Origin: Fomitopsis serialis | Taxonomy: Eukaryota > Basidiomycota > Agaricomycetes > Polyporales > Fomitopsidaceae | Reading direction: 5' to 3' | Assembly (NCBI RefSeq): GCF_022376445.1 | Contig: NW_025954996.1 | Coordinates: 279,939-343,938, forward strand | Length of the DNA: 64,000 bases | Part shown: piece by piece, positions 1,636-64,000 of the stretch | How the letters are laid out: each line of letters starts with the position of its first letter | How positions within the stretch are numbered: position 1 is the first letter of the stretch | Position numbers and translations under genes: made by a program | Notes under the pieces: generated by a model | Told to the model about the DNA's origin: nothing | The model's input: only the letters and a program-made list of their open reading frames with translations | Database searches by the model: none

Positions 1636-2135
1636 CGCGCCTTGACCAAGGGTATATGTTGGTAGCAAACCGTGGAGGTAAGTGCCAAATGTGCCAGCAG
1701 CATCAGCTCGCATAGACGGTGTCAATAGACAGGCAGCGCCTAACTTATGTATGTCAGGATGCCGGCCGTTCCGCCCCGTTGTTGTACGTACCATAGATAG
1801 CCGCCCTCCCACCTTCCGAGAAGTCCCTTGATGCTGTCCAAGTTTGCAACGGGTGATCCCTCCAGGCAACTTTAGGACAGGAAAGAATATACACAACCCG
1901 AGCTTGTTCGGAGAATCCCTTCAACGGAAGCTGTGGGCAGCAGGATGAAAAAAAATGCAACATGGGGCGAAGACACCGAGTCGGTCTGCAAAGACATGCT
2001 TGTCGACCGGCAACTCGTAATTTATCATGCAGTGAGCACTAGCAGGTCAAGACTCAAGGAATCCCACGTAAATTACAGCACCGAAAGGAATGATGAGCTC
2101 AAGAAGTGGAACTGTCCATCCGCCTCACCGTTCAT
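1636..2135. other. Intergenic region between P450-1 and P450-2
   Basis: It separates the start of P450-1 from the 3' end of P450-2 and presumably holds the P450-1 promoter. I see no gene or clear motif in it. Confidence 0.5.
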
Positions 2136-8777: not shown

Positions 8778-9458
8778 TGATCGAGTTACATTCGCATTGA
8801 ATGCTGCCGTGAAAGTACCTTCTTGGACCCAGACCCGTACGGACGATAAGTCAGACATGTATGCAGTATCACGGGCTTTGCAAGCTTCGACCTATGTACA
8901 TACCATAAATCGTAGCCGAAGCGTCGAACCCCAGAGCCCCAAGAACTGTCGGAAATTGTATCGGGCGGACCTTCCAGGCAACTTACGATCCGAGTATGGA
9001 TACCAATATCAATCGACTACACTTATGGCAAGCGGTTGCGTCACAATAAGGACAATGGAGTAGCGCCGGATGCTCCGCTTGGCGCGTCGGAGGTTCTGGG
9101 CAGAGAAGTACACTGCAAAGTTGAGCGCGACCGGGTCGCACAGTGGCGTTCGTACATCCGCGACTCGTCGATTGAACTTGTGCAGGTCTCTCATTGAACT
9201 CGCTACATGAATTCGGTGGGCCGACCTCGTCAAGGGCACAATGATCATGATGACAAACGCCCATGGGAGAATCATGGACTGCTCGAGTGTGTGACATGAG
9301 CGGAAGCGACACGAGATCGGCCTGCAAATACAAGTCTTCTGTCGATGGTTCAAACCAGTCTTGCTTATGCAGTGAGGACTAGTAGGTCAAGATGACGTAG
9401 GACACAGCGTAAGACGACGTATTGAGCGCAGAAGGTATGTATGCGGTTCATCGTTCCT
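8778..9458. other. Intergenic region between convergent P450-4 and P450-3
   Basis: This lies between two convergent 3' ends. Short open frames occur in several frames, but none shows a P450 motif or other recognisable domain. I see no gene here. Confidence 0.5.
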
Positions 9459-35995: not shown

Positions 35996-36936
35996 GCATT
36001 CGTGGTACCAGGAAATTATGCCTGTTTATGCGGTGTTGTTATTGCTCTCGACGTGGGTCTACTTCTGCAACTCGCAGGACTGTCTGAGCTTTGGCTGCTG
36101 CCGAGATGGCGGAAGATCTGCTTTCCTAGGATTTATTGCCATGCATTGACCTTGCTATTCGAGAACTGATGTATTCGCTGCTGCGTTGTGAGGACACTCA
36201 ATCGAGGGCTACAGCAAGAGCGACGGGAATACGGCTGATGGTGACGAGGAGGTATGTACTGTAATTCTGCGATGGTGGGTACGCTTAATGATTGAGACTA
36301 TCCAAATCGTAAACTTCAACGTGGGGTCTGTTCGGACACAGCTGCCTTACTGTACTGTACTGGGCGTGTTATTGCGAATACCGCCTTGCACAGGATTCAG
36401 GTCTGGAGAACTAGGCTGTGGACTCATGGCGTCCGCAGAAAGCACAGAACCGCTTGCGCATCGTGTGTCCGAGCCTGTGTGTTTGACCGTGCTTCTAAGT
36501 GCGCGCCGGCGAGCTAGCGCTACGTTGTAATGATGCATATAAACATCACTATCCTTCGCTGTCCCGCGCCTCCCCATCGTCCAGCTTCGAGTTTTGCAGC
36601 GCACACCAAGAGCCATTGAAAGTCCTCGCGAGTACGGCTCGCTTTGGCCGACAAATATGCTTACTGATCAGGTACTTTCCTTTCAGCGTCGCGACCACCA
36701 ACGGTCGTCAGCACCTTGCGAACCGACGACCGACACCACACATCTTGGCTTGTCTGCCAGTGGCTAGTAGCCAGTATACACACCGGAAATCAGGTAGCGT
36801 GTTATCTCACTAGGTTCACTCTTGGAGAGCCGCCGTCTGAGACGATGTCACAGTAACGTCTCTTCATCGTCGTGGATCGCAAACGTGCACAAATCCTTGA
36901 GACTTTGATCGGTACGACAACGTGGTTCTCAGCGGA
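35996..36936. other. Intergenic region between PNKP and F-box-2
   Basis: About 940 bp with no recognisable gene, holding the PNKP 3' region and presumably the F-box-2 promoter. Confidence 0.5.
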
Positions 36937-38420
36937 ATGGACACAGTCGAGTCGATGTAAGTGCCACTGTCCGAACGCGGGTAACATGGTTTACACATGT
37001 GGGATACAGTACACCCGCAACGTCCGAGAGCTCCTCAGCTCACGGTCCTTCGGTCCCGCGGCTTCCTGTGGAGGTCTGTGGCCGGATCATCGACCACATA
37101 GCTATGAAATGGCATGACGGTAATATAACGGGCGATCCATATCTGACCACTCTCACATCTTGTGCGCTCGTATGCCAAGACTGGTACTTCTTGACGTGCT
37201 ACCATCTCCACCAATACATCTATCTGCGAGACCGGAAGGATGTCCTCTCGCTCTCCAAATCCCTCCAAGCGCGACCGCGCTTCCGTGAGATCGTTCAAGT
37301 GGTCTTCATATCTGGCGCCTCAATCCGGCACCTGGGGACGGTTGCCGCTATGCTCGCGGGCAAGGCTCCGAAGTTGTGGAGGATCGGCATCAAGGATGCC
37401 GAGTGGACTATCCGCTCGGTTAGAATGGAGGACATCAGCTATCTAGCTGCGTCCAACTCCATTGAGGCTCTAGACCTCTCCAATGTCACCTTGTCGAGCG
37501 TCGCCCAGCTGTCCCGCCTCGTGTCGGCACTCCGGAGGCTTAGGCACATACAGTGCTTCAGAGTCGATTTCTTGCAGGAAGAGGAAGAGCGGGAAGAGCA
37601 AGTATCTCCGGCCTCACTCCCACCGAACTGTGCAAATCTGGAGATTCTCGATGTGCGATGGGTTGCACGAGCAGTCGAAGACCTCTTCGTGCAGATCCGG
37701 GCTTCTCGAGTACGCGATCTCGAGATTGGGGTGAACCACGACTTGGATCCACTGGCAATTTGGGCACCCAGCAGAAGCCAGACTTTGCTGAATGCGCATT
37801 CCACATCTGCACAAACGGTTGTGCTCCACATGCAACACAGCTATCCTGACTACTATCATACAATTGATGCTACAATGGGAAAGTCTTCTCAGTTCTCTCT
37901 CTCTCGTCAGTTGGCTGATCATTTCGTGCCTACAGAGCGAAACTACAACTTTTCACGTTACGACCACTTGTGGAGGTTGGAGTTGCGCCTGTACCACCCC
38001 TTTGTAGAATGGCCCTGGATCCCGTATATCCTGTCTCCCATCGTTTCGAAAAGCTTCCAGGCTCTGTCTGTTATGTTGGTGCTTCAGTCAGACCGCAAGC
38101 TCAAGGCCGATGACTTGGACGAGATGCTGACGACAATGGAGCACGATGGTGTTATGGCGCGATTAGACAGTGTCCTGCAGGAGAAGTACGTCTCCAGCAC
38201 TGCTGTGTCGCCCGGTGTCTGTCTAGGCATCCTCGATAAGAACAGCGTTCGGAGATCGGACGGCGAGCTTTCTGGGGTGTGTTCGGCATTCGGAGAACGG
38301 TACGATCGGTGGGACGAGCTCGTTAAACAGGGGATGCCACGCTCACATGGACAAGGCATATTGAGGTACGTAGTACTGTGGACTTCATCAAATTGCGAAG
38401 GAAAGCTGAATGCCCCTTGA
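36937..38420 (+). CDS. F-box-like protein (F-box-2), intact
   Basis: F-box-like/LRR protein of about 475 residues, a predicted SCF substrate receptor. A 20-nt first exon (36937-36956, MDTVESI) is joined across an intron ending at 37009 to TPATSESSSAHGPSVPRLP. The F-box region then reads VEVCGRIIDHIAMKW and CALVCQDWYFLTCYHLHQYI. The rest has leucine-rich strands (LAGKAPKLWRIGI, SNSIEALDLSNVTLSS) and a conserved tail ERYDRWDELVKQGMPRSHGQ, with the stop at 38420. A paralogue with the same two-exon start is inverted at 43836-45344. Compared with it, this copy is open throughout. Confidence 0.82.
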
Positions 38421-39059
38421 AGCACTGTGCATGACCTCCAGGCATACGAAAGCTGGAGGGAGGACACGCGCAGGATACATACTAGCATGCAAGCTGAACA
38501 GAAACAGGCTGCCGGAGAGGAGGTGTACCCTCGGGGCGAAGGTCAAGACAACAAGTGTCCTCGAGGCGGCACGGATTGACATCCTTGCAACTCTGCCTCC
38601 TCGCTCATGCCCTCGCGTGGAGTTCGTGAGTACAGAGCCATTGTCACTAGGTTGCTATGCTAACTTGTTGCGCGGTCTCAACGTACAGAATGATCCCGCG
38701 GCCGTAACGCGGATCGAAATATCGCTGGTGTCGTTCACATCCGCTCATGATCATGTGTAGCATTCTTTTTCGTTTTACCGGAGAATTGGAAGAACATTAG
38801 TATGAATGTCGTGCAGTCGATCGGAAGCTTCAGACATCATTACATACGACAGTACCTAAAACTAGTAAAAGAGTATTGGCTCCGGCATGCGGATTCTGCG
38901 CAGCTCTAAGGAGCGCTAGCGACGTCGAAGGTCTGTAGCACGCACAAGGATCATAGTAAGCTGCATCCATGAGATTTCCTTTGAGCAAATGTATTAGCCA
39001 ACCTTGCTGATCGTGGTATGTCCGAATACTCACAACAGCGTCCGCCGGGCATGTGGGTC
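38421..39059. other. Intergenic region between F-box-2 and F-box-3
   Basis: A 116-codon frame at 38410-38760 is open but unrecognised and overlaps the end of F-box-2. I do not call it a gene. Confidence 0.45.
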
Positions 39060-48000: not shown

Positions 48001-49614
48001 TTGTTCTTTGCAATGTCATTCACTGTAATAGGTCTTGCTGCAATTTACACAAAGGGCATAAAGCAGCAGCCTTCCCAATTTGGTATGTTCGAGGCCCCGA
48101 CAATTCGTCATACACTAACAAACGCTGCAGTCGTAGTGATTATATGTATTCATGCGAGTATTAATGATGTACAGTAATTTGGGATGCTAACAGCATCCCT
48201 CGCGAGCAACCCTACAAGCCCAGCCTCGACGTCCTCCATGCGCTTCGTCCCACGCTTGCGCTCCTTCACGCCCTGCGTGACGCACTCAGGAACCTGCGGT
48301 GGCCCGCAGCTGAGCATTCCCGTGGCTTGCGGCGCAAGGAGTGTGCATGGTAGCGAAGGGGTACAGCAGCCCCGGACTCGCAAAGAAGTAGCAGAGGTCG
48401 TGCTCACGGGTGCTCGCGACTCTGTGTGCAGGACGACGCGCGGCTGGAGGTAGTGGATGGCGGGCGTGGGCGTGCCGCAGCAGCGAGGATGTCGGGTAGG
48501 CCTCATCCGCCTGCACGAGGTCGACTCCATCGAGCCAGCGCGGCCACGCCGATGCAGGCCGTGTCTGACACGCTCCACGGCGCTGCGCTCGCCAAGCTCG
48601 GGCTCGCATGCGTGGACAACGGCTCGCGGACGTGGATGGCAACGGCTCGCGGGCGGGTGCAGCGCGCACGCATGCTCCCACGGAGGTCGACGCACTCGTC
48701 TTTGCTAAATCAGCATGTTAGTGGGCGATTTGGGAAGAGGAAGAGGGGGCGTACGAGCTACAGTCGATGTCGTCGATAATCGCGGCACGCATGACGCTGC
48801 CTGTGTAGTCCGAGGGGCCTCTGCTGGTCGACGCGCTGCTGTTCGTACCCGGTGACGCACCGTTTGTATTTTATCGACACACCGCCGTTCGTACTCACTG
48901 ACGCGGCTCCATTCATATGTGCCGATGCGCCGTTCGTGCTGGTCCGAGGGTCGGTCTGAAGTGGGTATGTAGATGGTAGAGCTACAGTATGGTAGCACCT
49001 GGGCGAGCCGTGCGGGCGCCCGTAAACCGAACATTTGTCTCTATTTGTTGTCTCACCAAGTTGGGCAAGCCCAATGTGCTCGGCCTATTCCTGGCCAATC
49101 ACAACGCGTTTAACGGTCCTACTTAGGACCGCAACATATCTGCAACTCACCTTCTGGGCATTTTCGCACTGTGTGTGCATATGTTAGGGATTAGTAGAGA
49201 TTAGATACATGTGTAGTCGCATAAAATACAACAAATGAGGTGCAGTAGTAGAGCAGACAAGCCAAAGTTCTCGTGTACAATAGGAATGTCTACCTACACT
49301 ACTGAACTGGTTCTCCCAGTCTCGGTCATAAGGGGTGTTGCAGCGTGATTTATACTGAACTCGTTTGTATTAGGGTATGTGCTTACTATCTTACAAGGTC
49401 TCTATTTACGATCCTTTACGAACACGTCGGCCGTGTCTGCATGCAGGAGCAGCAGAGCAGTCGGCCCTCGCCCTATGCGTTCGCGGTTGCCGTGTGTTGC
49501 GCGCGCCCCTACATAGGCCTGTTCTGCCCGCCGTCATGGTCACCCGCTTTTCGCTCACGCGCCTGCATTCCGTTCGTCGACTGTGCTTGCGTGCTGGGCA
49601 TTCGCCCGGCACGC
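48001..49614. other. Gene-poor stretch left of the retrotransposon
   Basis: No recognisable gene. A GC-rich block at about 48,180-48,780 has long overlapping open frames on both strands without a known domain. The last 170 bp (about 49,440-49,614) resemble the reverse complement of sequence right of the element (near 63,690-63,850), for example GCGTGCTGGGCATTCG. This suggests insertion into, or beside, an older repeat family. Confidence 0.5.
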
Positions 49615-51189
49615 TGTGGGGCAGGCCCACATGGGAACAGCGGTACGAGCCCGGAACGACACACGCACTCAGGCCCGGGCAATGCGGAGCGAAGCGACAT
49701 CCATTGGCGGAAGGACGACTCGGCGGAAGGACAACCAATATAAGAACACGCGGGAGGAAGACGGCTACAGTACATGGACAACGGGCTCCTCCCCCATGGC
49801 GTCCTCAACCTCTCCTTCCTCCAGATCATTGACATCCCTAACCGGCGCGAACCGCAGGCGGCGAGGTACCCCAGAGTAGCCGTCCGGGACGTAGACTCCC
49901 TCCGACAGGCGGGCGTGCAAGTCGCGAACACCGCCCTCCACCGTATTCAGGCCTCGGGCGATACGAACAGCTTCGGAACGAGCGTCGCGGTTAGCGGTGC
50001 GGCACTCGTCTAGGAGGCCCTGGAACCGAGTAAGGAGGCTGTCGAGGCTGTCGGACGAAGCGCGGTAGGACGAGAGCTGTAAGGGACGCTCCAAGTAGCG
50101 AACCGGAAGGAGGGGACGACCAATCTCTGCGTCGGCCTGCTCGGCGGTGACCCAATTCGGGGCCCAGGCAATCAAAGGGAAGGGTTCGCCCACGTAGCTA
50201 TGCTGCGACGGAAGAGTGAGGAAGACTTGGTCGAGGTACTCGATCAGCTCCTGCACGTCGGGATAGCGGCGGACGAGCGGAAGGGAAGCATCGCCGTGGG
50301 CCACTGCACGGGAACGAGAGTCGAAGAGCATTCGCTGCGGGGAGGACGGCTTAGAGGGGGATCAGGAATCAGGATGAAGGGGAAGACGCACGATTAACCA
50401 CCGAGCTCCGTGGGCCCAGGCAAGCCACTCGTGGTCGCTATCGGGGTTCAGACGAGGCTCGACTACACGTTCGTCACGGAGAAGATCGATGAGGCGGTAG
50501 AACCGGGTGGTGAAGACGATGGTGGACGGGTTCGGGGGAGCATCGGCGGGCATTGCAGACGGTGGGGAAACACTGAGAGCCAGGGGGAGGGAGCGGAAGG
50601 AGCTGGAGAAGGGTATGGCGAGGCGTCGGAAGGAGGCGGAGGGACCGGAAGGAGCTGGAGAAGGGCACGGCGAGGGGTCGGAAGGAGACGCGGCGGGTGC
50701 GGAAGGAACGGGAGAGGAGAGGAACGGGTGCCAGCGAGGGTAGGACGTGGGAAAACGGCGGCGGGAGGAGACTTAGGAGGGGAGAGGGAGGGAGGAGTTA
50801 GTTACCTACCACTACCTCTCAGGACTCCGTATCTAGGTTGCGACGGGCAATCTCAGGCTTCAGGTCTCGTATTAGGAGGAACTTCAGGCTAAGGAAGCTC
50901 GTCAAGGTTAGGCTCAGGCTTAGGAAGAAGGACGCGACAGGTTTAGGATCGTCGGAAGGAAAATCGTCGAGCGCAGCAGGCTTAGGAAGGCCGATATACG
51001 CCCACGGACAGGGCAGGGGAGGTGTTTATCGTATCATCTCGACCTCCCTCTCCTCCGCGAGGTACCAGAGACCTCGCTCCCTCCTTCCGCAGCTGTCAAC
51101 TCGCACCAACGACCCCCGCCCATCGTTTTCACCGATACCTAGAATTCCCTTCCGCGTCGTCTACGCATCGGGGACTCGCAATCACCACA
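49615..51189 (+). repeat. 5' long terminal repeat
   Basis: 1575 bp, TG...CA ends, almost identical to 61544-63119. A CCAATATAAG promoter-like motif lies near 49733, and a second TATA-like GATATACG lies near 50991 before a pyrimidine-rich stretch, a better candidate for the sense core promoter. The minus strand of the repeat encodes a spliced gene (49765-50553). Confidence 0.95.
49765..50553 (-). CDS. Antisense protein gene inside the 5' LTR (about 243 residues, spliced)
   Basis: On the strand opposite to gag-pol, ATG 50553 opens exon 1 (MPADAPPNPSTIVFTTRFYR, then DHEWLAWAHGARWLI), ending exactly in phase at 50392. A 57-nt intron with GTGCGT donor and CCCCGCAG acceptor (50391-50335) leads to exon 2. 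That exon reads RMLFDSRSRAVAHGDASLPL, RRYPDVQELIEYLDQVFLTL and LDSLLTRFQGLLDECRTANR, with an acidic tail DLEEGEVEDAMGEEPVVHVL and a stop at 49765. The same gene is intact in the 3' LTR with only two residue changes seen. I recognise no family. The composition (amphipathic helices, aromatic residues, acidic C-terminus) looks like a real protein and not like a shadow of purine-rich DNA. Its stop lies just downstream of the LTR's CCAATATAAG motif read from the other strand. Confidence 0.6.
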
Positions 51190-51191
51190 AC

Positions 51192-51210
51192 TGGAGCCCA
51201 CCGCGAGGGG
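51192..51210 (+). other. Primer binding site
   Basis: TGGAGCCCACCGCGAGGGG begins two bases after the 5' LTR. It would pair with the 3' end of a tRNA ending in the complementary acceptor sequence plus CCA. The tRNA identity was not determined. Confidence 0.75.
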
Positions 51211-51892
51211 GATTTCGTTGGTAAAAATCTTGTTGACCCAACCCCGGGTGCCACGTCATCCTGCCTATCACACGGTCCCGAGCGAAAACTCTCGCTACCG
51301 TCCCTTATCGTTCAGAGCCTCACACCCCTACGAGAAGTCTACTCGAGGAGCTCGCTATCGCACATCACTCTCCGGACTCGCCGTACGACCCATCGCTCAG
51401 GGTACCCGCGCTAGACGGCATTCCCCTTCCGCGCGCTGACGACAGTGACGGAGAGAACCCGTTCCTCGATCCGGCTGACAGCACCCTCACCTCCGCGCCT
51501 GCATCATCACCAACTCGAAGCTCAGCGTCGAGCGAGTCGATCCCGTTAGCAGACGTACCTCGGCGGCGAGCATACTCTACCCCGTCCGCGCTCTCCTCCT
51601 CGACCAAGTCAGTGGGCAGCCCTGTATCGGTGCCGGCCTCAGTTCCGCTTCCTCCCTCACCATATCCAATCAACGTTCCGCTTCCAGAATCACCCGTCTC
51701 GATATACGCATCACTCCCGTCGTCGCCTGTCAACGAAACCATACCCCTGCTCGTAGTCCCTTTATTCCCGTCTCTCGCCATTCCCTCCGATATATCGGAG
51801 ACAATTTCCTCCGTCTCATCCGTTACTCCCTCCGACGAGTCTGAGCTCGTTCTCCTTTCCTCCGCACTCCTTCCGCCCAACCAGAAATTAAA
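51211..51892 (+). other. Leader between LTR and gag, with an open Ser/Pro-rich frame
   Basis: A continuous forward frame runs from about 51,310 to 52,064, overlapping gag in another phase. It reads text such as DDSDGENPFLDPADSTLTSA followed by Ser/Pro-rich sequence. It has no clear ATG. It could be a leader-encoded extension reached by splicing or frameshifting, or non-coding. Confidence 0.35.
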
Positions 51893-54190
51893 ATGGCCGC
51901 TATCCAGTCACGCAGTATGCCGGTCCGCGGGGATCGCATTGCTCCAAAGTTCGACGATCAGCCCCGGTCGCTCGCGCGTTACTTCGAGGACGTCTCCGAT
52001 CTTCTGGGGCTCGCGAACATCACCGTCGACGAGGAGAAGATTCGGTACGCTCAGAGGTACCTGAACCCCGATCAGTATGAGCTGTGGGGCACTGTAACCG
52101 TCCCCGACAACCCGACGTTCGAGCAGTATAAGGAGGGGATCGTGAAGCTGTACCCTGGGTCGGACGGAGCATCCAAATATCTAGAAACCGATCTGGACGC
52201 AATTGCGGCGGCCGGGCTGAGTGCCGGGACGGACACGCGCAGTGGGGAGGCAGAGTTCTATCGAAAGTTCCTTCCGGTGGCCCGCTACCTAATGACGGAA
52301 GGGCTGGTGTCGAAGTCGCAGGTGCACCAGAAGTACCTCTCCGGATTCGACGCGAAGTCGGCGGACGCGATCCGTCGGAGGGTCGAGATTGTCAACTCTA
52401 CGGTCGACCCCGCGAAAGGATACAGCCTTGAGCAGCTGCATGGGGCAGCGCAGCAGTGTCTCAGCGCGGTCAGCTACGGCGGCGGAGGCAACACTCAAGG
52501 TGGGGGTACTGGTGCGGGAGCCGGCGGAGGAGGGGGGTCATCTGGCGTTAAGCAGGAACCGATGACGGAGGAAGCCCTGAGCCGAGCCTTCGTGGCGGCG
52601 CTAGGGGCACTCCAGCAGACGCATGGAAGCGGAGGAGGCCGCGGAGGAGGGTACACTGCCGGAAACTACGGCGGAGGAGGGTACGGAGCGGGGAACTATG
52701 GCGGAGGAGCCTACACGAGCGCGAACTACAATAGCGGGGGGTACGGCGGAGGAACGGGTCGGGGAGGACCGGTCTTCGGATACCAGCCTCAAGGACCTGG
52801 GCGCGGAGGGTATGGCGGCGGAGGCGGAGGGTACAGCGGAGGTGGAGGGTTCGGGACCAGGACATGCAACTTCTGCGGGGAGATAGGACACTTCCTGCGC
52901 GAGTGTAGGAAAGTCGGGGAATACCTCCGTGCGGGGAAGATCAGGCTCGATGACGAACAGAAGATACGCTTCCCCGATGGGGGTTTTGTGTCGCGGTATG
53001 GAGGCGGATTCCTGATCGACGCTATCGAGGCCAGGATGGCTAACTTGGCCGGCGGAGGGAACGGAGGGCAGCCGCAGCAGCAAGGGAACGTCGGAGGGAA
53101 CGACGGGCAGATTCGGGATGGGCCGCCGCATCTAGGAGCGAACATTGTAGAGATCGTCGAAGGATATACGGTCGAGGAGACGACCGAGGAAGAGGATTCA
53201 CTCAGGCGCGCCGAGGACTTAGAGGAACGTGCACGCGTCTTAGCGGCGGAGGCGGCTCGAGTGCGCGGAGGAGGGAAGAAGGTATCGTTCAGGGATCCTC
53301 CAGCGGAAGAGGATGCGCGCGGAAGCAAGCCCAGCGGGGGAACTGTGCGCGGGGCGGTTGGGAAGCCGCCCGGCATCCCAGCAAAGGGGGTATCACCCGG
53401 AACGAGCGGAGGAGGGCCGGTGGCGAAGGATCAGGGGAAGGGGCGGACGGCCGAACCACAGTATCGGTTCCAGGCGAAGATCAACGAGGGAAAGGACCCT
53501 CGAGCGAAGGCCGAAGATCTGGCGAGGCGGATGATGTACGAGAGTGATCAGAAGGCGAGCTGGGGCGAGATTCTCGAGATCAGCCAGGAGTTTCGGAAGG
53601 TAGTTGACGAGCAGATCAAGACGCAGCGTGTGCAGGTCGCTGGCATGGCGGAGGAAGCGGTGTGGAACGTGGGGACCACCGAGTTGTCCAGCGGAGGGAA
53701 CGTATTCGACAGCGGGTACTGGGACTCCTTGACGCTGCGGGAGCTGCGGCCCCTGATCAATGGCATCGGAAGGGCAGCCTGCATCCTGGATTCCGGGGCG
53801 CAGATGGTCCTGATGCGGAAGGACATTTGGGAGCGCGTCGGAGGGAGTCTTCGCCCTGACGAAGGATGCGTAATGGAAAGCGCGAACAAGACGACCACTC
53901 GGACGATAGGGAAGGCCATCGGGATGGAGTTCGTGTTCGATGACGAGGTGAAGATCGTCATGAATGTCCAAGTGGTAAGGGACGCTCCTTTCGAGGTGCT
54001 CCTGGGTCGGCCCTTCTTCGCCGCGAGCTGCTGCGAGACCCGGGACTTCAAGGACGGAAGCCAGACGGTTGTCCTCACCGACCCGCAGAGCAACCGCCGT
54101 GTGATGGTTCCCTCCTTCGAGCGCCGTGCGGGGTCGAAAAAGAAGAGTGAAGGACGCCCGGCCGAAGATCCTCCCGCGGAGGATTTTTAG
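51893..54190 (+). CDS. Gag-protease polyprotein of the Ty3/gypsy element
   Basis: 765 residues. The N-terminal capsid-like part (PRSLARYFEDVSDLLGL, PTFEQYKEGIVKLYPGSDGA) is followed by a long Gly/Tyr-rich tract (about residues 195-320). A CCHC zinc knuckle follows, CNFCGEIGHFLREC (about 325-338, C-x2-C-x4-H-x4-C), for nucleic-acid binding. After a charged linker comes an aspartic protease with ILDSGAQMVL (Asp near 633) and FEVLLGRPFFAASCC as the second conserved strand. The frame is intact and ends 38 bp before the pol ATG, so pol must be reached by reinitiation, bypass or a separate RNA. Gly-rich sequence ahead of the knuckle is unusually long. Confidence 0.93.
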   Translation: MAAIQSRSMPVRGDRIAPKFDDQPRSLARYFEDVSDLLGLANITVDEEKIRYAQRYLNPDQYELWGTVTVPDNPTFEQYKEGIVKLYPGSDGASKYLETDLDAIAAAGLSAGTDTRSGEAEFYRKFLPVARYLMTEGLVSKSQVHQKYLSGFDAKSADAIRRRVEIVNSTVDPAKGYSLEQLHGAAQQCLSAVSYGGGGNTQGGGTGAGAGGGGGSSGVKQEPMTEEALSRAFVAALGALQQTHGSGGGRGGGYTAGNYGGGGYGAGNYGGGAYTSANYNSGGYGGGTGRGGPVFGYQPQGPGRGGYGGGGGGYSGGGGFGTRTCNFCGEIGHFLRECRKVGEYLRAGKIRLDDEQKIRFPDGGFVSRYGGGFLIDAIEARMANLAGGGNGGQPQQQGNVGGNDGQIRDGPPHLGANIVEIVEGYTVEETTEEEDSLRRAEDLEERARVLAAEAARVRGGGKKVSFRDPPAEEDARGSKPSGGTVRGAVGKPPGIPAKGVSPGTSGGGPVAKDQGKGRTAEPQYRFQAKINEGKDPRAKAEDLARRMMYESDQKASWGEILEISQEFRKVVDEQIKTQRVQVAGMAEEAVWNVGTTELSSGGNVFDSGYWDSLTLRELRPLINGIGRAACILDSGAQMVLMRKDIWERVGGSLRPDEGCVMESANKTTTRTIGKAIGMEFVFDDEVKIVMNVQVVRDAPFEVLLGRPFFAASCCETRDFKDGSQTVVLTDPQSNRRVMVPSFERRAGSKKKSEGRPAEDPPAEDF

Positions 54191-54228
54191 ATGTCGATGA
54201 TGCAAGCAACGCGAGCGGAGACGATCTT

Positions 54229-57200
54229 ATGGGCCACTACTCAGTATATGTCTGGGACGGAGAGGGTGCGGAAGGAACGGATGCGCCTACCGCCAGGCTT
54301 AGCGACTATGGATCGTCGATGGACTCTGCAGATACCCTTTTCCCGAGTTGTAACGAGACCTTGGATCTTAGCGACGAAATACACGAGACCGTTGCTCAGT
54401 ACGAGGTTGCGGGAGGCAGAGAGAACATCGACGAGGGTGAAGGAAGTCGAGAGGAGTCGGTGGGAGGAGCGCGTGGGGGTGAGGGACGATACGACGAGTT
54501 GACGGAAGGAGACGGCGACTCAGCGGAAGAAGAGTACGAGTCGGCGAAAGAGGGACCCAAGTCCGGGGAAGGAAACTACGAGTCGGCGGAAGAAGACTAC
54601 GAGTCGGCGGAAGAAGACTACGAGTCGGCGGAGGAAGACTACGAGTCGGCGGAAGAAGACTACGAGTCGGCGGAAGAAGACTACGAGTCGGCGGAAGAAG
54701 ACTACGGGTCGGCGGAAGAATTCGAGTGGGGGGAGGAGGTGTTCAAGGTGGGAATGAGGTCAGAAATCGAAGTGCTCGCCTACAAGAAGGTAGCTCGGAA
54801 GGTACGACCAGTGGCCGCAACGCTCCCCGAGGAGTTCAGGGTGGTGCGCAGGGCGCCGACCGATCCGCTAACGGGCATGCCCGTTATGCCGATCGCTCCG
54901 CCGGAATTCGTTCCGCGCGGAAGGTACACGCAGGAACGAAGGGACGCACTAGATGTAGGGCGAAGTGGATTCCTATGGCCGGAGGAGGCGAAGCTGGTGG
55001 ACTGGCTCGTAGGGATGCACGAGAAAGTGTTTGCCTGGGATGAAACGGAGAAGGGGCGGCTCAGGGAGGAGTATTTTGATCCTGTGGTGATCCCGACGGT
55101 CGAGCATGTTCCGTGGGTGCTGAAGAACATCCCGATTCCTCCTGGGATATACGACGAGGTAGTCCGCATCATCAAGGATAAAATCTCGTCGGGGGTGTAT
55201 GAACCGTCGAACTCGTCGTACCGGTCGCGATGGTTCTGCGTGGTCAAGAAGGATGGGAAGTCTCTCCGCCTGGTACACGACCTGCAGCCGCTGAATGCGG
55301 TAACAATCAAGGACGCGGCGGTCCCTCCGTTCATTGAGCAGTTAGCGGAGTCGTTCGGTGGAAGGGCGTGCTATGGGGCCCTGGACCTATTTGTGGCGTT
55401 CGATCAGCGAGGATTGGCGATACGGTCGAGGGATCTTACAACGTTTCAGTCGCCACTAGGAGCGTTGAGGCTTACGGCGGTCCCGATGGGGTACACGAAC
55501 GCAATGCAGATCGTGCATGGGGACGTGACATTTATTATGCAGGACGAGATCCCGGAAGTGACGATTCCGTTCGCCGACGACGTCAACACTAAAGGGCCGA
55601 AGACGAGGTACGAACTGCCGGGAGGAGGGTACGAGACGATCAATGGGAACTCAGGGATCAGGCGGTTCGTGTGGGAGCATCTGGCGAACATGAACCGCAT
55701 ATTGCAACGGATGGGTGCAGTCGGAGGGACGTTTTCCGGAAAGAAGGCGCATCTATGCGTGCCGGATGTCGTAGTTCTTGGACACAAGTGCACGTATAGC
55801 GGAAGGGAGCCGGACGATGCCAGGGTGCAGAAGATTCGCGACTGGCCGGCGTGCAAGACGGTGACGGATGTACGGGCCTTCCTTGGTACGATGGGGCTGG
55901 TCCGCATATTCATTAAGGACTTCTCGAAGATAGCGAGGCCACTCACGAGGCTGACGAGGCGGGAGGTCGAGTTTGGATGGGCAGGGGAGGAAGAGTTAGC
56001 GATGCAAACGTTGAAGGACGCGCTTGTGAACTGCCCTGCGCTCCTTCCGATCGACTATACAGTGGATCGGGTGGTGATTCTAGCTGTGGACTCCTCGGTA
56101 ATCGGGGTTGGATTTGTCCTGCTCCAGCGGGACGGGAAGGGAAGGAAATGTCCAAGTCGATTCGGGTCTATAACGTGGAACGAACGGGAGTCACGATATT
56201 CACAGGCTAAGGTCGAGCTATACGGACTCTTTCGAGCGTTGCGGGCGTCGAGGATCCACATCATCGGGGTGCGGAAGCTGGAAGTCGAGGTCGACGCGAA
56301 GTACATTAAGGGAATGTTGAACAACCCCGATATCCAGCCGAACGCAGCCATGAATCGGTGGATAGCGGCGATCTTACTGTTCGATTTCAAGCTAGTGCAT
56401 GTTCCAGGGGTGCTACACTCTGGAGCAGACGGGCTGTCGCGGAGGGAGAGAGCGGAGGAAGATCCGGACGAGGAGGGGGATCCTGAGGAGTGGATCGACG
56501 AGGCCTGCGCATTTACGATCGAAACTTGGAACTCCAGTGAGCCGAGCTATCGGCGGAAGGGACTGCGGGCGCGGGAGGAGGAGCGAGTGCTCTGCCTGAT
56601 AAGTGGGGAGATGGTCCTGGGCGCGGAAGGGGTTGAAATTCCGCAGCACGACAAAGCAGACGCGGCGGAAGAAGATTTGGTCCGCATTGAAGAGTTCCTG
56701 AAGACTACCGAGAGACCGGAAGGAATGACGGACGAGGGAGCGTTCAGGAGATTCGTGCGGAAGGCGGGACGGTTCTTCTTACGCGGAGGGAAACTCTGGC
56801 GACGAGATCCAGGCGGGAAGCACAAGCGGGTGATTCGGAGGGAACGGAGGTTGGGACTGTTGAAGGAGGCACACGACGACCTTGGACATAAGGGAGTACT
56901 TACGGTGCGGACGAGGCTGCTGGAACGTTTTTGGTGGCCGTTTCTGGACCAGGACGTACGGTGGTACGTGAGCACCTGCCACGCATGCCAGCTCAGAAGC
57001 ACGCAACGGTTGAAGATCCCTCCGACGGTCGCGATACCGCAGGGACTATTCCACAAGGTGTACATGGACACGATGCACATGCCTGCCGCGGGAGGATATA
57101 AGATGGTGGTCCAAGGGAGGTGTTCGCTTGGGTCGTATCCGGAGTTCCGGAAGCTGCGGAAGGAGACGGGGACGATACTCGGGGCGTGGATTTACGAAGA

Positions 57201-58046
57201 CATTCTCTGCCGGTGGGGGCGGTGGCGGAGATCGTGACGGACAATGGTCCCGCGTTCCTCGCGGCGATGGAATACCTGGCGAAGAAGTACGGGATCCGTC
57301 ACATCAAGATCTCGCCGTATAACTCAAGAGCGAACGGAATCGTCGAGCGGAGGCACTTCGATGTGCGTGAGGCGACGATGAAGCTCTGCGGAGGAAACGA
57401 GTCGAAGTGGCCTTCGGTAATTGACGCGGTTTTCTGGGCGGAACGAGTGTCGATACAGAAAAGCACAGGGATGTCGCCATACCGAATCATGCACGGGGTG
57501 GAACCCATCTTCCCATTTGACCTGGCGGAAGCAACCTACCTGGTCCCGGCACCGGAAGAAATGCTCACGCAGGAAGAGTTCATCGCGCATCGCGCGCGAC
57601 AGCTGCTGAAGCGGAGGGAGGATCTTAACGAGATCCATCGGAAGGTACTTAAGGCGAGGTATAGGTCGGTCAAGGAGTTCATTAAGCGGAACGAACATAC
57701 TATCAAGGACTACAAGTTCGAACCTGGAGAACTAGTGCTAGTACGGAACTCCCAGATCGAGACGGAACATAGTCGGAAGGCGAAGCAACGGTACCTGGGC
57801 CCAATGATCGTGGTACGGCGGACGGAGGGAGGATCATACATCCTCGCGGAACTGGACGGGAGTGTGTCTAGGCATAGATACGCTGCATTCCGGGTGATAC
57901 CCTATCGCGGAAGGGACAAGGCGCGGGTTGAGATCACGGACTTAGAAGAATGGGAGGAGTACCTACCAGATGAGAACGAAGAGCTTGAAGAGCGGTTTGC
58001 CGTGGACGATGAAGAGGAGGAGTCGGACACGGAGGAAGGGGAATGA
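54229..58046 (+). CDS. Pol: reverse transcriptase, RNase H and integrase, frame broken once
   Basis: The first frame runs 54229-57237 (1002 codons). An acidic N-terminus with heptad repeats is followed by RT (RSRWFCVVKKDGKSLRLVHD, YGALDLFVAFDQ, PFADDVNTKG with the catalytic pair near residue 450). RNase H follows (VILAVDSSVIGVGFVLLQ, VHVPGVLHSGADGLSRR), then the integrase zinc finger (AHDDLGHKG, CHACQLRS) and the first catalytic Asp in VYMDTMHMP (residue 947). In a run of five G at 57215-57219 one base appears missing: the rest of integrase (EIVTDNGPAF, the NGIVERRH Glu with 34 residues between, GPY/F-like YLGPMIVVRR) continues in the next frame and stops at 58046. Either a programmed shift, a disabling mutation or a consensus error. 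No chromodomain recognised. Confidence 0.9.
54577..54720 (+). repeat. In-frame 21-bp tandem repeat coding an acidic heptad
   Basis: Seven near-perfect 21-bp units encode YESAEED repeats in the N-terminal part of pol, before RT. The copies differ by single bases, so unit-number changes between element copies are likely. Confidence 0.95.
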
Positions 58047-58490
58047 CAGGGAGAAGGGGAGGCGGGGAGTCAAGCGGAGGGGCGGAAGGTGCGGGCGTCG
58101 CGTCGGAAGGAGAGCGTGACCCGCGGAGGGCGGAGAGGGATGGGCAGACGAGCTGGATGGGGTGGAGCGGATATGCTCAAGAACGTATGAGAGCTGGGTC
58201 TCGATGACGTCGAGGGCGGCCTGGACGGAGGAATCGTTTTGGATAGTGTCGAGACGGGATCGGATATAACCCCGGAAGGCCTCCAGGGCGCGGACCTTCT
58301 CGGCGAGGGTGTCGAGTCGACGGTCAACGGTGCCACGATCGAAGCCGGCGCGGATCTCGAGGCGTCGCTGGGTGTTAAGGAAGGACTCGTAGTTCCTCCG
58401 GTGCTCCAGGAACAGATCGAGGAGTCCGTTAACTTGGATCGCGATGCGTGTGTCTCCGCGATCGATATCCCTGGCGTGACTCTCGAGCAT
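57963..58490 (-). CDS. Antisense helical/coiled-coil protein frame downstream of pol
   Basis: Opposite to pol, overlapping its last 84 bp. From ATG 58490 it reads MLESHARDIDRGDTRIAIQV, LLDLFLEHRRNYESFLNTQR, VDRRLDTLAEKVRALEAFRG and VIETQLSYVLEHIRST, with regular hydrophobic spacing and charged residues typical of long helices. A Ser/Pro-rich tail follows. The frame stays open upstream of this ATG (EERLTRLEASSARQIRQQER, then IWDEFVEFRRTVNTM) to at least about 58,620, so the true start is probably further up or behind an intron. No family recognised. The plus strand here is purine-rich, which favours open antisense frames, but purine bias alone would not produce heptad order. Confidence 0.5.
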   Translation of the reverse strand: MLESHARDIDRGDTRIAIQVNGLLDLFLEHRRNYESFLNTQRRLEIRAGFDRGTVDRRLDTLAEKVRALEAFRGYIRSRLDTIQNDSSVQAALDVIETQLSYVLEHIRSTPSSSSAHPSPPSAGHALLPTRRPHLPPLRLTPRLPFSLSFPFLRVRLLLFIVHGKPLFKLFVLIW

Positions 58491-59235
58491 CGTGTTAACG
58501 GTGCGGCGGAACTCGACGAACTCGTCCCAGATGCGCTCCTGTTGGCGGATCTGCCGGGCGGAAGAAGCCTCAAGACGGGTAAGGCGCTCCTCGATAGGAA
58601 GGGTGGAGATCGGGACGGCGCGGAAGGGTCGACGGGTGAGGGCGACGGGGGGAACGGAAGGGGAATCTCGTCGGGATCGAAGAAGGGACGACGCTCGACG
58701 CTGGGAGGCGGCGAGCGGCGGAGGGGACGCGAGTCTGAAGGCCGCTCATGCGGAGGAAAGAGGGGGCAGGGAGAAAGCGATGTGCAGGGCAGGATAGCTG
58801 CTCGGGGCACGAGTTAAGAACGATGTGGGAGATGGGATGGATGGACGACTCGCATACCCGAGGCAAGCACAGATCGATGGCGATAATGGGGAGGAGTGGA
58901 CAGTGGAAGGGGAAAGAGGAGGATCAGTAGCCTTGAGGCGTCGGCACCACTCGAAATCAAAGTGATCAACGAGCTAGATGCACAGGATGGAAGCCTCGAG
59001 GTGATTGTACAGGGCGGAGGCCTCGAGGCGATTGGAAATCAACGGGCAGCCCATCCGGTGGCCAGCGAGGAAACGAGTGCGCGGCCTCGGGGAGCTTATC
59101 ACACGGGTGGACGAAGAAGGCGCGGTCAGCGGGGCTCGGGGGGGGTAAGCAGGGATACATTGTACAATTGCGGACTTGGGACGGAGGGAGGTACATCGGA
59201 GGGAGGAGACTACTGCGGAACCACTACTACACTAC

Positions 59236-61245
59236 CTACTGGCCCTCCTCCGACTCAAACTGACGCTCAGGCTTCCCGGGACCTTCCATTTCGACATCTT
59301 CCTCCAGCTCGTCGTGCTCATCTTCTGGGTCGGGGATCTCGGGGGCGCCGAGCATACCGGGGCGGCGGAAGAATTCCCGGACTTCCCCAGACCGGCTGGC
59401 CATCCAATCGAGTCGATCTTGGACGGTTCGGAGGCGAGGAGGAGCGGCAGGCACGGCCAAGGGAGCGGGTGGAGGCTGCGAGGGACCGGCGACCGGCTCG
59501 GGGGATGCAGAAGGAGCGGGAGGTCGAGTAGGCGGCGCTGGAGCACCGCGGAAGGGGAAGTCGGCTCGGATATCCGAAGGACGGGGACCGACGAGGGTGC
59601 CTCCTGGGGTGGTTACCCAGTCGTAAGAGGCGAGGGCGGACTGAGGGAGGTCGGGATGGTGGCCTATATAGAAGAAGCTTGGCGCGCCTTCCTCTGGAAA
59701 GCAAGGGATGAGCAAGTAAGGACGGTAGGCGGAAAAGGGACTCACTAAAGGCACTGAACGCGCACCTCTTCTTCCGGGAACTACACGCGGCGCATGCGTG
59801 GCCCGGAAGGGCGTCGATGCGGCACCGGAAGCGATTTCGACGGCACTCAGGGCAAGGGGTGGTCGGAGAGTACACGTAGGCCCGTACGCGGGCGCTCGGC
59901 ATTGGAAGTGCGCTGCGGCACCGGAGGGAACTTGTCGGGGAGGGCGGGGGACGGAAGGAGGATTGTCGGCGAAGGGGAGCAGCCGAAGCGCCTCCGTGGT
60001 CGGGAAGCTTGAGGAGGACACGACGCGGCATTGGGCGAGACGGGCGAGGAGCGGGAGGAGGGGACGGCTGGGTTGGGCGGTAGAGCCGGGTCCCGATGTT
60101 GCTGGCGAAAATCGCCTCTTCCAACGCGCGAGGTGACATGGACCGCTCCAGGGCGTCATCCTCGATGGTATCGATCGGAGGGGGAGTCGGTGGCGCGCGA
60201 GACAGGGCGGTGCCGCGCGGAGGCCCGGGGGAGGAGATGGTATGGACGGCGCGATGGGAGGTGAGGGCGATGGCGCGAACAGAGGAAGGGGCGCGACGGG
60301 CGGCCTCTCTCTGTGAACAGAGGCGACGAGGAGGGTGGCGGCGAACGCGCGGGCGTAACGGGAGGAGGGACGGAAGGGTCCCGCTCGGTGAACGCGAGCG
60401 AGGACGCGCGGGCATAACGGCCGGGGCGGAGGGAGCCGGCTCGGGGAAAGGGAACCCGAACGGCCCAGCCACGGAGAGGGCGGGCTCAGGCGCGGGAACG
60501 TCCTCGAGGGCCGCGAGACGCACGGCGGGCGAGGGAACAGGACCGTCCTGGGCCGCAGGCTCGGGCATTGGCTCGTCGTACTCGAGAGGGGACGGAGGTC
60601 GAGGTTCGTGGGGCGGCGACCGGGGAGGCTCGGAGACGGGAGACAGATGCGCGGCGGTGGCGGGGAGAGGGGACGGATGAGGCACGGGCGATGGGACGGA
60701 GCGTGAGAGGCGGGACGACGGGACGTGGCGAGGACGGCCGGGGAGAGCTCGAAGGTGGTGCCGGCCCAGTAGCCGGTCGAGCCGTACCGGCGGCCACGCA
60801 GTTGGGCCTCCTGCCGGAGGGTCTGGAGGGAGCCCTGGTACCGGGAGGGCTGGCTGGCGAAGCCGTCCAGCCGCTCCCAGAAGGCGTCCAAGGCGGCCTC
60901 GGTTTCGGGACGCAAACGCGTCTCGAACAGCCCGTTGGTGAGGACGTAGTCGAGGTGCACGTCGTACACGGCCTGGGAGGACCCGTGAGCATGGAGGACG
61001 GGGAGATAGGTATCAGAGGTGCTCACCCAGGCGTAACATAGCTGGCGGCCCCAGATCAACCACGCGCCCGCTTGCGCGTGCGATGGATGGCGGCCCATGG
61101 TCGGCTCTCGAGCGGCGACGATGCTGATTCGCGCCTCAAGGGAGACCAGTTCAGCGGAGGCGGCGAGGCGGACTGGATAGTCCTCGTCGGGGAGACCGGC
61201 GGTGAAGTCCAGAGTGGCGGAAGGAGACGGGGAAGGACGAGACAT
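59236..61245 (-). CDS. Antisense Zn2Cys6-domain protein gene between pol and the 3' LTR
   Basis: On the strand opposite gag-pol. ATG 61245 starts MSRPSPSPSATLDFTAGLPD and a folded-looking N-terminal region (QAGAWLIWGRQLCYAWVSTS, VHLDYVLTNGLFETRLRPET). After a Pro-rich middle in a second frame lies CPECRRNRFRC...CAACSSRKKRC (59854-59762). The six cysteines are spaced C-x2-C-x6-C-x9-C-x2-C-x6-C, exactly the fungal binuclear zinc cluster, with the usual basic residues. A 52-nt intron with GTGAGT donor and TTTCCAG acceptor (59745-59694) returns to the first frame (EGAPSFFYIGHHPDLPQ, TVQDRLDWMASRSGEVREFF) and an acidic C-terminus ending at 59236. The switch between the first two frames near 60,680-60,780 is unresolved (intron or indel). 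Predicted DNA-binding; role in the element unknown. Confidence 0.6.
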   Translation of the reverse strand: MSRPSPSPSATLDFTAGLPDEDYPVRLAASAELVSLEARISIVAAREPTMGRHPSHAQAGAWLIWGRQLCYAWVSTSDTYLPVLHAHGSSQAVYDVHLDYVLTNGLFETRLRPETEAALDAFWERLDGFASQPSRYQGSLQTLRQEAQLRGRRYGSTGYWAGTTFELSPAVLATSRRPASHAPSHRPCLIRPLSPPPPRICLPSPSLPGRRPTNLDLRPLSSTTSQCPSLRPRTVLFPRPPCVSRPSRTFPRLSPPSPWLGRSGSLSPSRLPPPRPLCPRVLARVHRAGPFRPSSRYARAFAATLLVASVHRERPPVAPLPLFAPSPSPPIAPSIPSPPPGLRAAPPCLARHRLPLRSIPSRMTPWSGPCHLARWKRRFSPATSGPGSTAQPSRPLLPLLARLAQCRVVSSSSFPTTEALRLLPFADNPPSVPRPPRQVPSGAAAHFQCRAPAYGPTCTLRPPLALSAVEIASGAASTPFRATHAPRVVPGRRGARSVPLVSPFSAYRPYLLIPCFPEEGAPSFFYIGHHPDLPQSALASYDWVTTPGGTLVGPRPSDIRADFPFRGAPAPPTRPPAPSASPEPVAGPSQPPPAPLAVPAAPPRLRTVQDRLDWMASRSGEVREFFRRPGMLGAPEIPDPEDEHDELEEDVEMEGPGKPERQFESEEGQ

Positions 61246-61528
61246 GGGTGACAGGAGATGGGAGGGAGGAGGAAGGAGCACGAAGGAACAGGAGTGCGGC
61301 GAGCCTTATACGCGGGGAGACGAGGCCCAGCCACACTGATCGGAAGAAGATTCCCCGATCAAGAGACTATCCCGGCCAATCAACGCGTCGGACGAAGCGC
61401 TAGAGAAGCAAGGCGAGCAGAAGGCCGTGATCGATCACCGATCGCTCAAGACTTGGGACGATCCTGAAGGCGGCGTAGGAGTACCATATCGGGAAGAATG
61501 GGAGTCTGACCGGGGACGGTCAGAATTT

Positions 61529-61543
61529 CAAGGTGGGGGTAGA
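61529..61543 (+). other. Polypurine tract
   Basis: A purine run AAGGTGGGGGTAGA immediately precedes the 3' LTR, the expected site for plus-strand priming. Confidence 0.6.
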
Positions 61544-63119
61544 TGTGGGGCAGGCCCACATGGGAACAGCGGTACGAGCCCGGAACGACACACGCACTCA
61601 GGCCCGGGCAATGCGGAGCGAAGCGACATCCATTGGCGGAAGGACGACTCGGCGGAAGGACAACCAATATAAGAACACGCGGGAGGAAGACGGCTACAGT
61701 ACATGGACAACGGGCTCCTCCCCCATGGCGTCCTCAACCTCTCCTTCCTCCAGATCATCGACATCCCTAACCGGCGCGAACCGCAGGCGGCGAGGTACCC
61801 CAGAGTAGCCGTCCGGGACGTAGACTCCCTCCGACAGGCGGGCGTGCAAGTCGCGAACACCGCCCTCCACCGTATTCAGGCCTCGGGCGATACGAACAGC
61901 TTCGGAACGAGCGTCGCGGTTAGCGGTGCGGCACTCGTCTAGGAGGCCCTGGAACCGAGTAAGGAGGCTGTCGAGGCTGTCGGACGAAGCGCGGTAGGAC
62001 GAGAGCTGTAAGGGACGCTCCAAGTAGCGAACCGGAAGGAGGGGACGACCAATCTCTGCGTCGGCCTGCTCGGCGGTGACCCGATTCGGGGCCCAGGCAA
62101 TCAAAGGGAAGGGTTCGCCCACGTAGCTATGCTGCGACGGAAGAGTGAGGAAGACTTGGTCGAGGTACTCGATCAGCTCCTGCACGTCGGGATAGCGGCG
62201 GACGAGCGGAAGGGAAGCATCGCCGTGGGCCACTGCACGGGAACGAGAGTCGAAGAGCATTCGCTGCGGGGAGGACGGCTTAGAGGGGGATCAGGAATCA
62301 GGATGAAGGGGAAGACGCACGATTAACCACCGAGCTCCGTGGGCCCAGGCAAGCCACTCGTGGTCGCTATCGGGGTTCAGACGAGGCTCGACTACACGTT
62401 CGTCACGGAGAAGATCGATGAGGCGGTAGAACCGGGTGGTGAAGACGATGGTGGACGGGTTCGGGGGAGCATCGGCGGGCATTGCAGACGGTGGGGAAAC
62501 ACTGAGAGCCAGGGGGAGGGAGCGGAAGGAGCTGGAGAAGGGTATGGCGAGGCGTCGGAAGGAGGCGGAGGGACCGGAAGGAGCTGGAGAAGGGCACGGC
62601 GAGGGGTCGGAAGGAGACGCGGCGGGTGCGGAAGGAACGGGAGAGGAGAGGAACGGGTGCCAGCGAGGGTAGGACGTGGGAAAACGGCGGCGGGAGGAGA
62701 CTTAGGAGGGGAGAGGGAGGGAGGAGTTAGTTACCTACCACTACCTCTCAGGACTCCGTATCTAGGTTGCGACGGGCAATCTCAGGCTTCAGGTGTCGTA
62801 TTAGGAGGAACTTCAGGCTAAGGAAGCTCGTCAAGGTTAGGCTCAGGCTTAGGAAGAAGGACGCGACAGGTTTAGGATCGTCGGAAGGAAAATCGTCGAG
62901 CGCAGCAGGCTTAGGAAGGCCGATATACGCCCACGGACAGGGCAGGGGAGGTGTTTATCGTATCATCTCGACCTCCCACTCCTCCGCGAGGTACCAGAGA
63001 CCTCGCTCCCTCCTTCCGCAGCCGTCAACCCGCACCAACGACCCCCGCCCATCGTTTTCACCGATACCTAGAATTCCCTTCCGCGTCGTCTACGCATCGG
63101 GGACTCGCAAATCACCACA
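61544..63119 (+). repeat. 3' long terminal repeat
   Basis: 1576 bp, nearly identical to 49615-51189. Differences seen by eye are about six substitutions and one extra A just before the end (GCAAATCACC against GCAATCACC). Confidence 0.95.
61694..62482 (-). CDS. Antisense protein gene inside the 3' LTR, second copy
   Basis: Same structure as the gene in the 5' LTR: exon 1 is 62482-62321, the intron is 62320-62264 and exon 2 is 62263-61694. The two predicted proteins differ, as far as I can see, only at one Trp/Arg position (APNWVTAEQ against APNRVTAEQ) and one Asn/Asp position (RDVNDLEEG against RDVDDLEEG). This copy lies directly upstream, on the same strand, of the antisense Zn2Cys6 gene, with about 450 bp between them. 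All antisense genes therefore read leftward as a possible series starting in the 3' LTR. No family recognised. Confidence 0.6.
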
Positions 63120-64000
63120 GCGCGCAAGTCGCGCGTCGACCCTCTTAGAGTCGCCAACGCCGTACGCAGCCCACGAACATACTGCGGGCGCGAGCACAGT
63201 GAAGAGTGGACGGCTGGAAGGGCGAGTGGCTGGTGGGGAGGCGAGAGCGAGTCCCCATAGGTGAGCGCAAACGCACGCGAGCGCCCACTAACGCAGGTAC
63301 AGGACGCGGCAACGTGCAGCACGACTCGCACGGTTACCGCGAGAACGCAGGTCCTCTGCCCTGCGTGCAGGCACGGCCAATGGACGGCTGGACCACTGGA
63401 CGAGCGGACGCGCGCGCACGGGCAGCCAGCATACACGCTGACTGCGAGCGCGCTGGGCAAATGTCCAGCCACCGAACGCGCGCAACGCGAGCGGGAAGGC
63501 GGGCGGGCCGGTGAACAGGCAAGTAGTACATGAGTGACTGGTCGAGCAGGTGAGCAGACAGGCACACGGGTTGACAGGCGGGTGAGTAGGCGGGCGAGGA
63601 GGCACACGAGGAGGCACACGAGCGAGTGGGCGGGCGGGTCAGCGGGCACACAAGCAGGGGACCACACACACGCCGACCACGAGCGTGCTGGACGAATGCC
63701 CAGCACGCAATCATGGCGGACGAACGGAGCGCGTGCGCGAGCTCAGGATGGGAGGACAACGACGACGCTGAGCAGGGCCGGGGCGTGCGCAACACGCCGA
63801 CCACGAGCACATAGGGCCAGTGCCCGCGTGCAAACGCAGCCGACGAGAGTGTCGTGGCCACAACTTGGAAGGTTAGTACTTTGATGTGCGCGACGCGCTG
63901 GAGTCCGAGTCGCGCGGCGCGGACTCGCACGTCGGACTAATAGTACTGAAGTATTTCTGTAATGACCATAGAGTGTTGATTGATCGACGTTAGTGTCGAT
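63120..64000. repeat. Right flank with degenerate repeat family
   Basis: GC-rich sequence with internally repeated motifs: GCGCTGGGCAAATGTCCAGC near 63,450, GTGCTGGACGAATGCCCAGC near 63,685, and GAGGCACACGAG twice near 63,600. The reverse complement of about 63,690-63,850 resembles the left flank at 49,440-49,614. A GAGTC...GACTC near-palindrome lies at about 63,917. No gene is supported, although several long frames are open on both strands because of base composition. Confidence 0.55.

Follow-up and report, generated by a model that had tools for sequence, protein, structure and literature searches.

Sequence evidence for an antisense gene with a Zn2Cys6-type cluster in a Ty3/Gypsy retroelement of Fomitopsis serialis

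Antisense genes of LTR retroelements

The HBZ gene of HTLV-1 encodes an antisense bZIP regulator, and the antisense promoter of HTLV lies in the 3' LTR. HBZ is also mentioned in excerpts of PMC11963269 and PMC7264820. Excerpts of the same two sources place the antisense additional ORFs of plant elements in the interval between pol and the 3' LTR, i.e., gene23 of Grande, those of RIRE2 and the Retand ORFs with TRP28, and for Grande a promoter upstream of gene23 has been described (excerpt of PMC7264820). Among fungi, the Boty-like elements of Botrytis cinerea carry an antisense gene named brtn (Zhao 2011, as cited in excerpts of PMC7264820, PMC8365987, PMC4227169 and PMC5987419). PMC7264820 regards the roles that antisense genes play in these elements as still to be determined.

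Here we describe gene B, an antisense gene of a Ty3/Gypsy element found in a stretch of 64,000 nucleotides (the window) of the basidiomycete Fomitopsis serialis. Judging by its sequence, gene B belongs to a known kind, the antisense additional ORFs located between pol and the 3' LTR: it runs opposite to gag-pol, occupies that interval and is conserved over copies with coding selection. As far as the excerpts go, the plant ORFs are alike in place, orientation, conservation over copies and suspected nuclear or DNA-binding role, whereas the plant products named there (TRP28, SMC) have no zinc cluster (PMC7264820, PMC11963269), and the present element stands apart from them by its introns, its TATA box, its Zn2Cys6-type cluster and a gene embedded in the LTR. 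With brtn, gene B has in common being an additional antisense gene of a fungal LTR element; Botrytis is an ascomycete, unlike the present host. HBZ and gene B are both antisense-coded putative transcription regulators of a retroelement and no homology is claimed, since the first is a bZIP with its promoter in the 3' LTR and the second has a zinc cluster and a promoter in internal DNA. In the titles and opening lines of abstracts on antisense genes of LTR elements we have found none with a zinc cluster, and the form considered here, an antisense additional ORF that combines introns and a TATA box with a Zn2Cys6-type cluster, was not found described in them.

The host element and its copies

The element (Table 1) is bounded by LTRs that are 99.56% identical over 1576 columns (six mismatches and one gap). 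No perfect 5-bp target-site duplication was found beside them (flanks 49605-49614 and 63120-63130). The gag ORF reached the Pfam zf-CCHC profile with 20.8 bits (cut-off 20.8) and gag-asp_proteas with 20.5 bits, under the cut-off of 28.2, and the pol ORF matched RT_RNaseH_2, RT_RNaseH and Integrase_H2C2 above their cut-offs. The integrase continues in another frame (rve, E 0.0052, below the Pfam cut-off), which overlaps pol by 136 bp at 57102-57237 in the window copy; this frame change is either a frame break or a programmed shift. A series of 21-bp tandem repeats within pol (54449-54763) codes for runs of ESAEEDY-like units. From the pol stop (58046) to the 3' LTR (61544) there are 3.5 kb, in which the reading frames under selection are all antisense.

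The searches covered one genome, that of F. serialis (66.2 Mb, 806 contigs). Gene B was compared over 18 copies, the window copy and loci L009-L025, and a distant set comprised eight fragments of the same genome (L026-L033) with 27-64% amino acid identity to the matched gene B segments. L033, which lies at a contig end, contains only the N-terminal part (47-54% identity). The antisense arrangement beside pol or integrase recurs in L027-L030. The L019 locus matches the window beyond the LTR end up to the end of the query (63120-63200, 99.5%), which would fit either a duplication or a second haplotype carrying this insertion. The window also holds two further repeat pairs, one direct (2125-4181 / 9448-11498, 78%) and one inverted (36926-38435 / 45355-43835, 74%).

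Table 1. Features of the element and of its antisense genes, in window positions.
Feature	Position	Strand	Basis or remark
Ty3/Gypsy element	49615-63119	+	LTR pair flanking gag-pol
5' LTR (TG...CA), ~1.58 kb	49615..51189	+	self-alignment of the window
Gene A copy in 5' LTR	49765..50553	-	matching ORF 49765-50361, LTR identity, genome hits at both LTRs
gag ORF, CCHC knuckle and protease-like part	51845..54190	+	Pfam profiles
pol ORF (RNase H, integrase zinc domain)	54151..57237	+	Pfam profiles
Integrase continuation, other frame	57102..58046	+	rve profile; relatives in L027-L030
ORF C (core 58616-58127, start approximate)	57963..58745	-	overlaps integrase end by 84 bp
Gene B, two introns	61245-59236	-	opposite gag-pol, between pol and 3' LTR
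Gene B exon 3, acidic tail	59236..59693	-	dN/dS 0.11-0.22 vs five diverged copies
Gene B intron 2, 52 nt (GTGAGT...TTCCAG)	59694..59745	-	delimited in 16/18 copies
C-x2-C-x6-C-x9-C-x2-C-x6-C cluster CPECRRNRFRCRIDALPGHACAACSSRKKRC	59762..59854	-	spacing pattern, six frames
Gene B exon 2: end of N-terminal domain, Pro-rich linker, zinc cluster	59746..60972	-	frame broken in window copy
Gene B intron 1, 54 nt, phase 0	60973..61026	-	splice sites conserved over copies
Gene B exon 1	61027..61245	-	dN/dS 0.07-0.31 vs L010, L013, L015, L016, L018
TATAAG box, 65 bp upstream of the gene B ATG	61305..61310	-	TATAA[AG] over copies
Conserved promoter motif CCGATCAGTGTGGCT	61329..61343	-	exact-match genome search
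Palindrome TGATCGG-N11-CCGATCA, candidate Gal4-type site	61337..61361	-	only one in window
3' LTR	61544..63119	+	self-alignment of the window
Gene A, 243 aa, inside 3' LTR; intron 62320-62264	61694..62482	-	selection, intron boundaries

Gene B, its zinc cluster and its neighbors

The preliminary description had reported a perfect six-Cys cluster on the opposite strand between pol and the 3' LTR, followed directly by an intron that leads into a frame with an acidic C-terminus, and all of this was borne out. The cluster has the exact spacing, the intron joins its frame to that of the acidic tail, and the last 40 residues of the L021 product contain 42% D/E with a net charge of -15. The upstream intron, the TATA box, the antisense frames A and C and the frame break of the window copy go beyond that description. 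Intron 1 has a GT[AG]AG donor and an AG acceptor in 18/18 copies, with a length of 51-55 nt that is not a multiple of three in eight of them, and intron 2 measures 52-73 nt in the copies where it was delimited; in L018 the second acceptor was not found by the script. The linker is of low complexity, with 30% Pro in L021.

Only three of the 18 copies retain an open frame all the way from the conserved start to the exon 3 end, namely L021 (636 aa) and L013 and L014 (661 aa each). The frame is broken upstream of exon 3 in 12/18 copies, including the young window copy, in which the break falls after exon 1 and ahead of the cluster and which, when spliced from the ATG, stops at residue 491 in a wrong frame. 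The cluster frame is absent in L012 and L025, the match of L025 to the window ending short of the cluster. These breaks may be true lesions or assembly errors.

Selection was estimated region by region on the best blastn piece of each region, for six of the 17 other copies. Against the diverged copies L010, L013, L015, L016 and L018 (60-98% DNA identity), the antisense-frame dN/dS was 0.08-0.39 in the N-terminal part of exon 2 and 0.04-0.14 in the cluster, besides the exon 1 and exon 3 values of Table 1, and a single stop was met, in exon 3 of L018. The sense frame that shares the wobble position gave 0.08-0.58 but has stops. Of all the frames, the antisense one alone joins low dN/dS (0.04-0.39) to near-absence of stops. 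In the pooled tblastn pieces third-position changes dominate over the diverged copies, and the linker is weakly constrained (0.18-0.69); the dN/dS of L009, L012, L022 and L025 is raised because these pieces mix frames in frame-broken copies, and the values of 0.3-0.8 for near-identical copies derive from very few changes. On these codon comparisons, the six-Cys cluster, the N-terminal domain and the C-terminal domain of gene B are under purifying selection.

The general cluster spacing gave a single match in the six frames of the window and none in 60 second-order Markov simulations of 64 kb. Loss of the Cys spacing in other copies had been named in the preliminary description as evidence against the cluster; the six Cys are intact at exact spacing in 16/18 copies, and they are kept in four of the eight distant fragments (L026, L027, L028 and L029), the distant families being about 40% identical to gene B in this region. 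L030 matches the cluster partly, and L031-L033 have no match there. All six Cys are invariant in the eight aligned rows.

The C-x2-C-x6-C-x(5-12)-C-x2-C-x(6-8)-C spacing of PF00172 fits the gene B cluster. In the Zn_clus profile search proposed earlier, the profile was matched by 8/8 rows (best E 6.4e-4), all of them below the 21-bit cut-off, with 19.6 bits for the isolated domain (row 1) and 11.2 bits for the long ORF, and the best stretch covers only profile positions 17-33 of 39. A PDB profile search gave no significant match, a C2H2 finger ranking first at E 0.048 (AlcR 0.54; Gal4 1.8). The PROSITE-type pattern, which demands a basic residue in the interval from Cys 2 to Cys 3, matches 4/8 rows, the window-type row included, and fails in the other four, among them all three distant-family rows. 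The distant families keep the six Cys and have lost the basic residues of that interval (AKRNHV, VTRGTI), which the window-type families retain. The cluster region is basic (net +8 over 65 aa) and lies in the C-terminal third of the protein, at about residues 462-492 of 636.

Gene B shares with Gal4/AlcR-type factors the six-Cys spacing, the basic residues (in the window-type families) and a CGG-N11-CCG palindrome nearby, and differs from them in its score below the Pfam cut-off, the position of its cluster, the loss of basic residues in the distant families and its location in a retroelement. Since the Pfam cut-off is missed, the PDB search is silent and the distant families lose basic residues, we do not file gene B as a Zn2Cys6 transcription factor: of the earlier proposal of a gene of this type, the exact six-Cys spacing under selection stands, and the product is at most a putative member of the class. 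Taken together, these data strongly support gene B as a real antisense gene that encodes a protein with a selected Zn2Cys6-type cluster.

A TATAA[AG] box lies 65-81 bp upstream of the gene B ATG in 18/18 copies; together with the splice sites it lends indirect support to antisense transcription. By exact matching in this one genome, the 15-bp motif of Table 1 has 23 sites in 66 Mb, 23/23 of them upstream of gene B (in the window or at element loci), and the reversed motif used as control has none. Of the 25 loci L009-L033, 22 have CCGATCA[GC]TGTGGC starting 33-43 bp upstream of a TATAA; L027-L029 are without it. The motif forms, in three subfamilies, one half of the palindrome TGATCGG-N11-CCGATCA. 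Genome-wide this palindrome occurs at 14 places, all of them gene B promoters and all among the motif sites. Its core is CGG-N11-CCG, the Gal4-type spacing. L015-L017 have an altered palindrome arm, L018 and L033 lack one arm, and in L026 and L030-L032 the arms are 4 bp apart. We infer that the gene B product could bind this palindrome. Neither motif nor palindrome was found in the LTRs, which leaves a direct effect on the gag-pol promoter with no site to point to.

Two further antisense frames accompany gene B. Gene A lies wholly within the LTR and is therefore carried twice by an element with both LTRs; it has at least 185 exon-level matches in the genome and a dN/dS of 0.07 at dS ~1.0 against L015, L016 and L017. 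ORF C, coiled-coil-like by eye, has a dN/dS of 0.05-0.09 against L010, L015, L016 and L021; the L018 pieces for A and C are about 40 nt long, and dN/dS there is meaningless. No TATA box was conserved in 260 bp upstream of A (11 loci) or C (six loci), with the start mislocated in some loci (for A, L027 and L030) and a short stretch of L015 for A. In viral contigs, three pattern matches to gene A were obtained and none was confirmed. Kinship of the N-termini of A and B as paralogues was rejected (BLASTP E 1.6; profile comparison aligning the WLxWA stretch only, P 0.023, probability 2%). In each gene a phase-0 intron lies 12 residues away from the W of this stretch, a common position that is no more than suggestive of N-terminal kinship. 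Between the window and L020-L023, dS is ~0.8-0.9 in ORF C but at most 0.05 in the N-terminal part of gene B (reference L021), and the element copies look like recombinants of subfamilies.

Origin and possible role of gene B

That gene B is a chance ORF or an annotation artefact is scarcely credible. GC-rich DNA has long ORFs in many frames and most copies are frame-broken, but the empty simulations, the antisense-frame selection, the conserved splice sites, the cluster of the distant families and the promoter motif stand against it, and conservation across families refutes it at the sequence level. It is also very improbable that the antisense RNA alone is functional, as a double-stranded-RNA trigger or interference transcript. 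Convergent promoters would give complementary RNA, an idea raised for plant elements in the excerpted PMC7264820, but selection acts on the amino acids, with third-position changes dominating. Capture of a host Zn2Cys6 gene by the element, offered by the preliminary description as an alternative, is improbable too and found no support, although fungi are rich in Zn2Cys6 proteins, at least 26 Zn_clus matches occur in the host genome and the introns of gene B could be a host-gene relic. The cluster and C-terminal part gave at least 42 genome matches at E <= 0.01, spread over 20 contigs and all falling at element copies; among these matches no stand-alone host copy was found in this genome, and among the Zn_clus matches listed none lies at a gene B locus. 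Recent capture was rejected, no host paralogue having been seen in the genome searches, and any capture must be old because gene B is common to several diverged families. In the protein database, no whole-protein homologue of gene B was found among 8000 candidates scored, nor one of region 440-560 among 916 candidates. As a control, pol residues 230-760 gave 1922 relatives with basidiomycete names among the 120 matches listed, of which the best named is from Rhodofomes roseus (79% identity) and others are from Pleurotus and Leucocoprinus; fungi are thus represented in that database, and relatives of gene B could still escape the search because introns split the gene and a length filter was applied.

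We lean towards gene B being an accessory gene proper to this Ty3/Gypsy lineage, whose product would act as a zinc-cluster regulator. The main rival, which we hold to be a real but lesser possibility, accepts gene B as real and selected and assigns the cluster to another step: it could act as a chaperone of nucleic acids, take part in nuclear import of the pre-integration complex or in its choice of target, or suppress silencing by the host. A regulator is supported by the exact Cys spacing, the antisense-frame selection, splice sites kept while intron lengths drift, the TATA box, the promoter-confined motif, the palindrome, the Zn_clus matches, and the basic cluster region with an acidic tail. 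It is weakened by the Pfam and PDB scores, the distant rows that fail the PROSITE-type pattern, the motif missing in L027-L029 and the LTRs, the palindrome arm lost or altered in L015-L018, the 12/18 frame-broken copies and the weak constraint on the linker. Another role for the cluster draws on that same weak Pfam and PDB support, on distant families that keep the six Cys without the basic residues, and on a cluster away from the N-terminus; the motif upstream of gene B could, moreover, belong to a host factor. Against it, the motif is found nowhere else in the genome, which is unexpected for a common host factor, and the window-type families retain the basic residues.

If gene B is a regulator, its mRNA would start just below the TATA box and be spliced twice, giving a nuclear protein of ~640-660 aa whose cluster would hold two zinc ions and bind DNA at or near the conserved motif in its own promoter. 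The protein would set the level of antisense transcription and, through it, the activity of the element and, in trans, of sister elements. Its role would be by analogy the counterpart of those of HTLV-1 HBZ and of nuclear products encoded antisense in Grande and other plant elements. It is plausible, as the preliminary description proposed, that the element encodes its own regulator. A wider proposal is more tentative: a basidiomycete Gypsy lineage may possess an antisense regulatory set of A, B and C, each selected and with A and B intron-bearing, in which B would bind the Gal4-like palindrome in its own promoter and tune the family in trans, as an independently evolved fungal equivalent of retroviral antisense regulators.

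In gene B a recognisable class of metal cluster meets a conserved promoter and, within one element, a candidate binding site, and this makes the regulator idea directly testable. If a retroelement carried a gene with introns on its genomic strand, the introns would be lost on copying, and the opposite orientation spares them. As gene B is antisense, its introns would not be spliced from the sense genomic RNA and would survive reverse transcription. Genes A and B illustrate here how genes with introns can persist in a retroelement, in one case inside the LTR itself.
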